Positions 19,985 through 24,087 of a stretch of DNA of 27,131 nucleotides are shown here, piece after piece. The DNA is from a virus. The notes under the pieces were generated by a model that did no database searches, was not told the origin of the DNA, and saw only the letters and a program-made list of their open reading frames with translations. The stretch covers positions 1 through 27,131 of the IMG/VR virus record IMGVR_UViG_3300007519_000614. One strand, given 5' to 3'. Numbering within the stretch: the first letter of the stretch is position 1; each line of letters opens with the position of its first letter. Made by a program: the position numbers and the translations under genes.

Positions 19985-20117
19985 AGAGGATTAGTATATT
20001 CTTCCTTCACTAAATCCAAACAGGTGGTCCCGAGTTCGAATCTCGGTCTCTTCTTAGGAAGAGGTAGCTCAGTCGGTAGAGTCCCTGTCTCATAATAGAA
20101 TATACACTTACCTTTTT
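19985..20117 (+). ncRNA. Structured RNA motif, copy a (encloses the permuted tRNA)
   Basis: P1 AAGAGG with CCTTTT; internal loop ATTA (19990-19993) opposite ACTTA (20106-20110); P2 GTATATTC (19994-20001) with GAATATAC (20098-20105), 8 perfect pairs; then TTCCTTC. The interior is a tRNA in permuted order. A T-run follows P1. Confidence 0.7.
20020..20095 (+). tRNA. Circularly permuted tRNA, anticodon CAT
   Basis: The 3' half comes first: ACAGG (anticodon stem), TGGTC, T arm CCGAG TTCGAAT CTCGG, acceptor TCTCTTC. A TTAG loop then leads into the 5' half: acceptor GAAGAGG, TA, D arm GCTC/GAGT, anticodon stem CCTGT, loop CTCATAA. CCTGT pairs with ACAGG and the acceptor strands pair in all seven positions, so every helix of a tRNA is there with the break in the anticodon loop. 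The amino acid would be Met or Ile. Confidence 0.75.
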
Positions 20118-20124
20118 ATTTTAT

Positions 20125-20198
20125 ACGAGTATAGCTCAGTTGGTTAGAGCGCAACACTGATAATGTTGAGGTCGCAAGTTCAAATCTTGCTATTCGTA
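20125..20198 (+). tRNA. tRNA-Ile(GAT)
   Basis: Acceptor ACGAGTA/TATTCGT, A73; anticodon arm CAACA CTGATAA TGTTG. Confidence 0.93.
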
Positions 20199-20201
20199 CA
20201 T

Positions 20202-20299
20202 TGAGGATTAGAAATTACTTCCTTCTTTTTATTGGTTCGATTCCAATAAAGACTGCTAATACCGGTCTTTAGGTTAACTTAGAAATTTCACTTACCTCA
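20202..20299 (+). ncRNA. Structured RNA motif, copy b (with T-arm-like hairpin)
   Basis: P1 TGAGG/CCTCA; ATTA opposite ACTTA; P2 GAAATT/AATTTC; then CTTCCTTC. The interior has a T arm (ATTGG TTCGATT CCAAT) and AAAGAC/GTCTTT closed by a loop, as if a permuted acceptor stem, but no D or anticodon arm. The interior is similar in sequence to 26348-26400. Confidence 0.65.
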
Positions 20300-20305
20300 T
20301 TATTT

Positions 20306-20380
20306 AGTCTCATAGCTCAGTTGGTTCAGAGCATTTGCCTTACAAGCAAGAGGTCGTAGGTTCGACTCCTACTGAGACTA
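20306..20380 (+). tRNA. tRNA-Val(TAC)
   Basis: Acceptor AGTCTCA/TGAGACT, A73; anticodon loop CTTACAA; T arm GTAGG TTCGACT CCTAC. Confidence 0.93.
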
Positions 20381-20436
20381 CTAGAAATAATAACCAAGAA
20401 TGTCAATCGCTAATAAATAATAAAAAATAACAAGAC

Positions 20437-20928
20437 ATGACTATTTTAGTATTAAACGCAGATTCTCAACCTTTGAATGTTACGACATTTCAAAGAGGTT
20501 TCAACCTTGTATGGAAAGGTAAAGCCGAAGTTGTGAAGTATGATGCAGATTCTCCTATTGAGTCTTCTGTTGGAACATACAAACGTCCTCTTGTTATTAG
20601 ATTAATCAGATTCGTTTACATTCCATTTAAGAAAGTACCATTATCTCGTCAAAATATATTCAGACGTGATGGACACAAATGTGGGTATTGTGGAGATGCA
20701 AGTAAGGATCTTACAATTGATCATATCTTCCCAAAATCTAAAGGTGGAGATAACAGTTGGAAAAATCTAGTTACTTGTTGTAAAAAATGTAACTGTAAAA
20801 AAGATAACATGACGACTAAAGAAGCAGATATGACATTACTCGTAACAGCATACATGCCAACCTTTACTCAGTTTATCGACGGTATGGTAGACGGACATAG
20901 AGCAACATGGGCAGAATATCTCTCATAA
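20437..20928 (+). CDS. HNH endonuclease
   Basis: Residues 76-125 form a zinc-type HNH domain: NIFRRDGHKCGYCGDAS with the first Cys pair, LTIDHIFPKSKGG with the catalytic DH, SWKNLVTCCKKCNCKK with the second Cys pair and Asn. The first 75 residues (ILVLNADSQPLNV, the widespread N-terminal segment of this HNH family) are typical of stand-alone HNH proteins found in many bacteria and phages. Roles include homing and DNA processing at packaging; none is shown here. An ATAAATAA box at 20413-20420 lies 16 nt before the ATG. Confidence 0.88.
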   Translation: MTILVLNADSQPLNVTTFQRGFNLVWKGKAEVVKYDADSPIESSVGTYKRPLVIRLIRFVYIPFKKVPLSRQNIFRRDGHKCGYCGDASKDLTIDHIFPKSKGGDNSWKNLVTCCKKCNCKKDNMTTKEADMTLLVTAYMPTFTQFIDGMVDGHRATWAEYLS

Positions 20929-20971
20929 AATTTTCACAAATTATGAAACTTAGTCAGTAACATATGTATAA

Positions 20972-20979
20972 TATATTTG
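20972..20979 (+). promoter_or_regulatory. -7 box TATATTTG of a likely promoter
   Basis: A perfect match to the Bacteroidetes -7 consensus; no clear -33 TTTG at the right distance. Transcription from here would give a leader of about 210 nt containing motif copies c and d before the TerD-like gene. Confidence 0.4.
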
Positions 20980-21014
20980 TTACAAAATTAACGACACAAG
21001 TTCATTAACATATT

Positions 21015-23336: not shown

Positions 23337-23342
23337 CACCTA

Positions 23343-23371
23343 GGATCCTGACATTTCAGGATCCCTTTTTT
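23343..23371 (+). terminator. Rho-independent terminator
   Basis: Stem GGATCCTGA/TCAGGATCC (23343-23351, 23356-23364) with a T-run, 7 nt after the stop of the TerD-like gene. Confidence 0.92.
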
Positions 23372-23377
23372 ATATAC

Positions 23378-23391
23378 GTTCTTTGATAAAT
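23378..23391 (+). promoter_or_regulatory. boxA-like GTTCTTTGA overlapping an ATAAATAA-type box
   Basis: GTTCTTTGA as at 16330, running into GATAAATAAA. It precedes about 700 nt of structured RNA without a protein gene, so it may be their promoter or antitermination site. Confidence 0.35.
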
Positions 23392-23401
23392 AAAAACAAT
23401 T

Positions 23402-23518
23402 AAGAGGATTAGGTATTGCTTCCACCTATAATTTAGCGGTTTCGGCCGCATTACAGATCAATCGGGATCTCTTCGGAGATCGACGATTAAAAATTAGTAA
23501 CATCACTTACCTCTTTTT
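23402..23518 (+). ncRNA. Structured RNA motif, copy e
   Basis: P1 AAGAGG/CCTCTT; ATTA opposite ACTTA; P2 GGTATTGC with GTAACATC (one mismatch); then TTCCACC. The interior holds two stable hairpins (GCGG TTTCGG CCGC and GATCTC TTCG GAGATC), the second enclosed by AATCG/CGATT. Confidence 0.68.
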
Positions 23519-23520
23519 AA

Positions 23521-23854
23521 ATATTATATTGTGATTCCAGTAGGTTAAACCCTATATATGGGGATTGACAATAAGATTTAAAACTAAAAAGTATGATAGG
23601 TTCCGATAAGTAGGAGGACTACATTAAATCTGACCGTCTATTACGGAAGAGCGCTAACTTAGCAAAATGTACAAGGATTGAAACCCAGCTATATAATTAC
23701 TTTTAAGGGCACCATAAACTAGCCACTTCTTATAGATCAATTTTACCATCTACTAGTGTTGACTCAGATCACGAATGCTCACGCAGTGCATGATGTGAAT
23801 ACGTGCTTATTGGAACACATAACTTCCTCCACCTCACTGAGGTGGAGGTTTTTT
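23521..23854 (+). ncRNA. Unknown structured RNA of about 330 nt
   Basis: No plausible protein gene. Hairpins visible in order: GTAG/CTAC, CCGT/ACGG, GCTA/TAGC and the extended TCAC..ATGC/GCAT..GTGA, ending in the strong terminator at 23826-23854. I could not fit it to RNase P RNA, tmRNA, 6S or the conserved core of a group I intron. Confidence 0.5.
23826..23854 (+). terminator. Rho-independent terminator
   Basis: Stem CCTCCACCTC/GAGGTGGAGG (23826-23835, 23839-23848) with six T residues. It ends a transcript that has no protein gene in front of it. Confidence 0.92.
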
Positions 23855-23856
23855 AA

Positions 23857-23981
23857 AACATTAATATGTGTCATGTAGCGGGAGTAACCTAATGGGGGTG
23901 GATCAATCTACGACGCCTCATAACATGGAAGACATAGACCAAGAGTAAGTGATTGTGAGGTCTAACGCATATTAACTCATT
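23857..23981 (+). other. Non-coding spacer with local structure
   Basis: AGACC/GGTCT (near 23935 and 23958) and GTGGATCAATCTAC form hairpins, and CCTCATAAC resembles a CAT anticodon loop, but I cannot fold a tRNA, ordinary or permuted. No coding sequence. Confidence 0.3.
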
Positions 23982-24087
23982 AAAAGGCTTAAGAGAAGCT
24001 TCCTTCTACATAAACTATGAGGGAAAATCCTTCGGGAGATTCCTCAACCAACGAAAATAGTTTCTCTAATTTCCTTTTATTTTTTAA
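23982..24087 (+). ncRNA. Structured RNA motif, copy f
   Basis: P1 AAAAGG/CCTTTT; CTTA opposite AATTT; P2 AGAGAAGC with GTTTCTCT; then TTCCTTC. The interior has GAGG/CCTC around ATCC TTCGG GAGAT. A long T-run follows P1. Confidence 0.65.

Follow-up and report, generated by a model that had tools for sequence, protein, structure and literature searches.

Six repeats on a viral contig belong to a family of modular structured RNAs linked to SCO0854-family genes

Positions 1-27,131 of the IMG/VR virus record IMGVR_UViG_3300007519_000614 (the window) carry six copies of a structured RNA motif placed around the gene for a 712-amino-acid (712-aa) protein. The six repeats belong to a family of small structured RNAs not catalogued before, in which the basal stem covaries strongly, and in dozens of unrelated phages and in actinobacteria the RNA co-occurs with, and is tightly linked to, genes of the SCO0854 protein family, to which the 712-aa protein is related. 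It is fairly probable that these are Y-RNA-like RNAs with a Ro-like protein partner, an unrecognised cousin of the Ro-Y RNA machine in which the stem docks the protein and the interior is an interchangeable effector module. Y RNAs are held by Ro60 in animals as in bacteria. A full-text literature search (SCO0854; TerD with Y RNA; TROVE with TerD), outside which most subscription papers fell, found no description of the RNA or of its pairing with a SCO0854-family protein.

A basal stem that recurs and covaries

The motif was defined by a descriptor made up of P1, a loop of 3-7 nucleotides (nt), P2, a UUCCUUC-type strand, a variable interior, P2', a loop of 3-8 nt and P1' (Table 1). On the window this descriptor found exactly the six sites listed by the initial annotation, all on the + strand; the - strand and five dinucleotide-preserving shuffles gave no site. 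The simpler pattern GGMTTAN{5,10}CTTCC matched seven times on the + strand, at the six copies and in a tRNA-Gly at 17900, and gave no match on the - strand or in a reversed control. The recurrence of one plan at six sites is thus borne out by the descriptor, shuffle and strand controls. The initial description of P1, P2 and the interiors also holds, except that copy 3 has a shorter P2 and a 3' loop that reads CATTTA, not ACTTA; its wording of "ACTTA or a variant" for the 3' loop needs amending for copies 4 and 6, which have AATCC/AATTT.

All six copies were recovered by a covariance model, copy 5 weakly (E 0.07); its training set included copies 3 and 4. Five of the six folded better than their shuffles (z -2.5 to -4.3), and copy 1 was unremarkable (z -1.3). 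Minimum-energy folds contained both P1 and P2 in copies 1, 2 and 6 and P1 alone in copies 3 and 5; in copy 4 both stems formed in a shifted register.

Homologues and strong covariation, both of which the initial annotation had proposed to test for, were found far outside this genome. The consensus of the wider family is GG-CYAU-P2-(C)U followed by UCCUUCUA ... AG-P2'-GMUUU-CC: a basal stem consisting of P1, the asymmetric internal loop CYAU/GMUUU and P2, and then a conserved UUCCUUCUA strand. Since the wider family has CYAU/GMUUU, the ATTA/ACTTA of the window is a local variant. Both stems covary extensively. An alignment of 49 Streptomyces copies that used sequence alone has 97.8% of its cells paired, against 47-59% in slid registers; seven of the 16 pairs are changed on both sides, and none of 500 shuffles reached the covariation observed. 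A mixed set of 47 copies shows compensatory changes in 13 of 15 pairs. As a control for circularity, P2 partners were picked by P2 alone and the pairing of P1 was scored at fixed loop lengths of 4 and 5. P1, which played no part in the selection, paired at all five positions in 34 of 54 copies, compared with 0-5 of 54 in registers slid by a few nucleotides. No known Rfam family covers the stem: Rfam returned nothing relevant on the window except tRNA and a sub-threshold YrlA match, and no family matched the RNA at six Streptomyces loci.

Linkage to the SCO0854-family gene

Four viral contigs sharing the locus were found through the gene for the 712-aa protein, which lies between copies 4 and 5; one is identical to part of the window and the others have 86-93% protein identity. 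These syntenic relatives all carry the motif, with copies at the same positions, and contig L234 has three extra (8630, 14856 and 15622). Distant homologues (22-32% identity) were found by tblastn in phages of Rhodococcus, Ruegeria, Rhodobacter, Xanthomonas, Mycolicibacterium, Lactobacillus and Salicola and in uncultured phages, and the gaps beside the gene in these phages hold hairpins of this plan, often as several consecutive copies.

With a wider homologue search, the loci numbered 80 in viruses and 80 in actinobacteria. At a descriptor score of at least 15, 88 viral loci yielded 126 matches on the gene strand, 11 on the opposite strand and 8 in shuffles. The descriptor matched at 79 of the 80 actinobacterial (Streptomyces) loci, at most of them with a high score and 20-30 nt past the stop codon of the gene. 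Covariance model R1, applied to 46 viral loci with E up to 0.05, found 120 matches at 41 of them, 85 outside the training set. Every one of the 120 was on the gene strand and none fell within the gene; 67 were upstream and 53 downstream, at a median distance of 116 nt, with 117 inside 1 kb. In six Streptomyces-type genomes of 8-11 Mb, R1 matched once or twice per genome, at the locus. The protein family occurs in six of 246 actinobacterial genomes, and the RNA model matched in four, all four among the six, adjacent to the gene and nowhere else, under filters so strict that the search could have passed over weak copies; when the remaining two protein loci were searched unfiltered, the RNA was found at both, so that all six have it. 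A viral scan with the pattern GGATTAN{6,9}CTTCCTTC was discarded, as among the matches listed most were due to chance and the sole real one, L114, is an identical copy of the window. The motif is absent from LR745206, a 634-kb phage and the best DNA match to the window, and no model match lies near its own TROVE gene.

These positions bear on the alternative that the element is a cis-acting mRNA site of the SCO0854-family gene, either an autoregulatory protein site or a stability or terminator element of the 3' untranslated region, with no free RNA. Such a site would fit the Streptomyces element, which is usually single and close behind the stop codon, and window copies 3-5, which lie directly before and after the gene. 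However, placement varies, with viral copies on both sides and the RNA upstream in RING-type actinobacterial genes. Some copies are also distant: as much as 1.8 kb away in the flanks searched, in the window tRNA clusters beyond another gene, and kilobases from the gene in L234. Streptomyces copies have no U-run after P1', and a cis site would not need elaborate tRNA-like interiors. The distant copies, the placement on either side and the missing Streptomyces U-run therefore argue against a purely cis terminator, and an intrinsic terminator was rejected as a general explanation because the GC-rich copies have no U-run. We regard a cis-acting site as unlikely for the family, and a cis-regulatory role may apply to the single-copy Streptomyces case. 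The initial annotation had left the choice between a processing scaffold, a ribozyme domain, a protein-binding site and a regulatory terminator. A protein-binding site is now favoured because the RNA travels with one protein family; the terminator is disfavoured, as is a tRNA-processing scaffold, because most copies hold no tRNA and several tRNA-like ones are without a usable anticodon loop.

A proposed Ro-like partner and the tRNA-like interiors

The NCBIfam profile NF041916 (SCO0854/MXAN_6230 RING family) matches the 712-aa protein over residues 317-687, body and C-terminus (E 1.2e-86). Since its 291.7 bits are under the full-length equivalog cut-off of 600, the protein is a RING-less relative of that family. 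Every phage or Streptomyces homologue tested is matched across the body and TerD region, but the phage members and most Streptomyces members found score under the cut-off and appear RING-less; no RING finger was found in the window protein or in the Streptomyces homologues examined. The actinobacterial G117 homologue L433 has a RING and also has the RNA beside its gene.

An AlphaFold2 model based on 46 aligned homologues reached a predicted local distance difference test score (pLDDT) of 81 and a predicted template modelling score of 0.70; with four close sequences the pLDDT was 38. In comparisons of the model by Foldseek and VIA-align, residues 471-656 match TerD (Z 14-18). The best solved match after TerD is Deinococcus Rsr (2nvo; Z 9.2, 316 residues, 4.5 A), and Xenopus Ro-RNA (1yvp; Z 7.1, 315 residues) and a Ro60/La complex (9nfa; Z 6.3, 312 residues) are also in the top twelve, whereas unrelated structures ranked near the Ro matches align over about 100 residues only. 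The predicted alpha-repeat body thus aligns with Ro60/Rsr (TROVE plus vWA; 2nvo, 1yvp) over about 315 residues, with a TerD-like C-terminal domain where Ro60 has vWA.

Several observations weigh against a Ro-like partner and a Y-RNA-like RNA. First, the Z of 9.2 falls short of what is safe for helical-repeat proteins, and the modelled resemblance is suggestive rather than conclusive. Second, the TROVE profile (PF05731) matches neither the 712-aa protein nor the window and L231-L234 contigs, all of these records being fragments. An hhalign comparison of the A5 profile with the TROVE alignment, which is shallow, gave a probability of 0.2, and the A5 profile matched no PDB chain by sequence. Third, the internal loops differ from the AUGCU/AAAACUUG of YrlA. 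Finally, RtcB is unlinked in 14 of the 15 phages tested, and is linked in Weasels2 only. Because sequence profiles give no support for homology, we claim for the protein a Ro60-like mode of action, not membership of the TROVE family.

The permuted tRNA that the initial annotation saw in one interior is real in copy 1 and is best read as a YrlA-type tRNA-mimic module. Between the window, L232 and L234, the anticodon-like stem changes on both sides (CCUGU/ACAGG, CCGGU/ACCGG, CCAGU/ACUGG), as does the T stem (CCGAG/CUCGG, CCAGG/CCUGG, CCGGG/CCCGG), and the acceptor ends are capped by UUAG or UUCG. The module is present in about a dozen distinct copies on at least nine viral contigs, and the GC-rich L331 pairs perfectly in the stems. 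The remaining copies have hairpins or unstructured loops inside, so the interior is interchangeable. The YrlA model (RF02553) matches L234 copies end to end at 48.4 (14856-15005), 40.6 and 35.5 bits, and matches the module only in L232 (34.7 bits) and copy 1 (28.7 bits); no copy reaches the gathering score of 69 bits. Ordinary tRNA-tRNA junctions, and 13 of 14 control genomes, also gave partial matches of about 15-28 bits, so only the full-length matches of 35-48 bits were given weight.

One explanation of these interiors is that they are genuine permuted tRNA genes, in which the stem would join tRNA halves for excision and circularisation into functional tRNAs. As in the permuted tRNA genes of algae and archaea, the 3' half precedes the 5' half; copy 1 keeps an anticodon-like CAT and the pairing of all tRNA stems, with the compensatory differences described above, and its folding yields the full cloverleaf plan. 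Nevertheless, we find this very unlikely. The acceptor is shut by the 4-nt UUAG/UUCG loop, the family has neither CCA nor a bulge-helix-bulge, the linker is of 4 nt, and the scaffold is common to non-tRNA members. The tRNA-like copies at L234:14856 and in L331 are without a normal anticodon loop, most family members contain no tRNA at all, and YrlA, which has the same permuted arrangement, is not spliced.

The likeness to YrlA and other bacterial Y RNAs (RF02553; PMC8394870) lies in a basal stem with an asymmetric internal loop followed by a variable module, in the same permuted tRNA domain of some copies (T arm, capped acceptor and D arm, entered via the anticodon stem), and in an RNA encoded next to a protein gene. 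YrlA, in which the large basal stem holds Rsr and the tRNA-like domain contacts PNPase (PMC8394870), is the nearest parallel. The module and the RF02553 matches of up to 48 bits would fit YrlA Y RNAs of the ordinary kind, with a conventional Rsr bound to them. However, every match is sub-threshold, Streptomyces copies have no Rfam match of any kind, the loop and P2-flank consensus is CYAU, UUCCUUCUA and GMUUU, and most members have short hairpin or unstructured interiors in place of the tRNA-like module. There are also several copies per phage, the partner is of the SCO0854 family with TerD and not TROVE-vWA, and the window and its 127-kb relative have no TROVE gene. This identity is accordingly more doubtful still. 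Least credible of all is an RNA antitoxin array of the type III toxin-antitoxin kind neutralising the neighbouring protein, which would account for several RNA copies next to one gene, but the copies diverge in sequence and interior and are not near-identical tandem pseudoknot repeats, the 712-aa protein has TerD and Ro-like folds with no ribonuclease or PADLOC match, and Streptomyces usually has a single copy.

In the Ro-Y-like reading that we favour, the six elements would be small non-coding RNAs acting in trans, encoded in multiple around the gene of their protein partner. The predicted Ro60/Rsr-like body, with TerD in the place of vWA, would bind the basal stem and internal loop. The interior, a tRNA mimic or hairpins, would be a swappable effector module by which the complex is tethered to a further factor or the protein's surface is occluded, by analogy with YrlA, Rsr and PNPase. 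The tRNA-like module may serve to bring in PNPase or a tRNA enzyme, or it may decoy host tRNA nucleases; a decoy role was raised for YrlA in PMC7790460. During infection the phage would probably use the ribonucleoprotein (RNP) in the quality control or repair of RNA or tRNA, or as a defence against host attack on tRNA.

We also lean slightly toward a broader view, that actinobacteria and phages of widely differing hosts share a second, unrecognised Ro-type RNP lineage, formed by the SCO0854 family (alpha-repeat plus TerD, sometimes RING) and its own modular Y-RNA-like class. Phages would have multiplied the modules and refitted them, among other things with tRNA mimics acquired independently. 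If so, a widespread protein family named just for its RING would gain a function class, that of an RNA-guided or RNA-tethered RNP, and Ro-type RNPs would extend beyond TROVE proteins. Genetically tractable Streptomyces would offer a compact system for testing Y-type RNA function. The phage arrays, with one stem and many inserts including tRNA mimics, would be a natural experiment on Y RNA partner choice and would bear on how phages protect or exploit tRNA pools.

Features of the window and its relatives

Table 1. RNA copies, tRNA-like module and protein-coding gene of the window (all on the + strand)
Feature	Coordinates	Details	Basis
RNA copy 1	19984-20116	P1 19984-19989/20111-20116; ATTA 19990-19993; P2 19994-20002/20097-20105; ACTTA 20106-20110	Descriptor, covariance model, fold
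tRNA-like module, copy 1	20020-20088	Circularly permuted; anticodon-like stem ACAGG 20020-20024/CCTGT 20084-20088; T arm 20030-20046; acceptor TCTCTTC 20047-20053, UUAG cap, GAAGAGG 20058-20064; D arm from 20067	YrlA model (28.7 bits), minimum-energy fold
RNA copy 2	20201-20300	Interior a T-arm and capped acceptor-like helix, without D or anticodon arm	Descriptor, covariance model, fold
RNA copy 3	21013-21092	Immediately 5' of 712-aa gene	Descriptor, covariance model
RNA copy 4	21100-21164	34 nt 5' of 712-aa gene; fold z -4.3	Descriptor, covariance model, fold
712-aa protein	21198-23336	SCO0854/MXAN_6230 family without RING; predicted Ro-like alpha-repeat body and TerD-like C-terminal domain (about 471-656)	
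RNA copy 5	23402-23515	66 nt 3' of 712-aa gene; two-hairpin interior; 19.1 bits	Descriptor, covariance model, fold
RNA copy 6	23981-24079	5' of CTA-anticodon tRNA	Descriptor, covariance model, fold

Upstream of copy 1 is a second structured and conserved non-coding stretch (19889-19965; ACACATGCCGGAT...CCATGAGCCGGC...CCGCCCGGCA). Its version in L232, from 8701, shows paired changes, and similar-looking sequence occurs near window positions 23860-23975. Between copies 2 and 3, an HNH endonuclease is encoded at 20437-20928, with similarity to the HNH of IscB/Cas9 (NCBIfam IscB, 1.9e-18).

Related small GIY-YIG/NUMOD3 homing-endonuclease-like open reading frames (ORFs) are inserted among the tRNAs (15592-16236, 18008-18634, 19255-19887 and 7973-8359), and NUMOD3 was confirmed for 19255-19887. 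At 6244-8900, a DNA ligase gene is followed by homing-endonuclease-like ORFs and then by a fragment (8580-8900) resembling the ligase C-terminus, as if the gene were duplicated or interrupted.

Ruegeria phage RpAliso (129.5 bits) and Rhodobacter phage RcXuper (108 bits) each have a permuted tmRNA gene, and phage MT835874 has a tmRNA. Their positions are L255 2084-2305, L256 2273-2575 and L251 808-1108, all within about 2 kb of a SCO0854-family gene.

A PTH2-like (peptidyl-tRNA hydrolase) ORF, possibly followed by an HD region, spans 24248-25189; read from its ATG, it meets an in-frame TAG at codon 9 (24272). Just 5' of it, at 24118-24194, is the tRNA with anticodon CTA, and the two together suggest amber suppression or recoding. 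The ligase frame (6202-7692) and the frame at 11684-12241 would also be longer if TAG were read through. Uncultured phage LR745206 encodes a true TROVE protein (L260 5088-6536), near which none of these RNAs lies, and it has a PTH2/HD-region match in common with the window.
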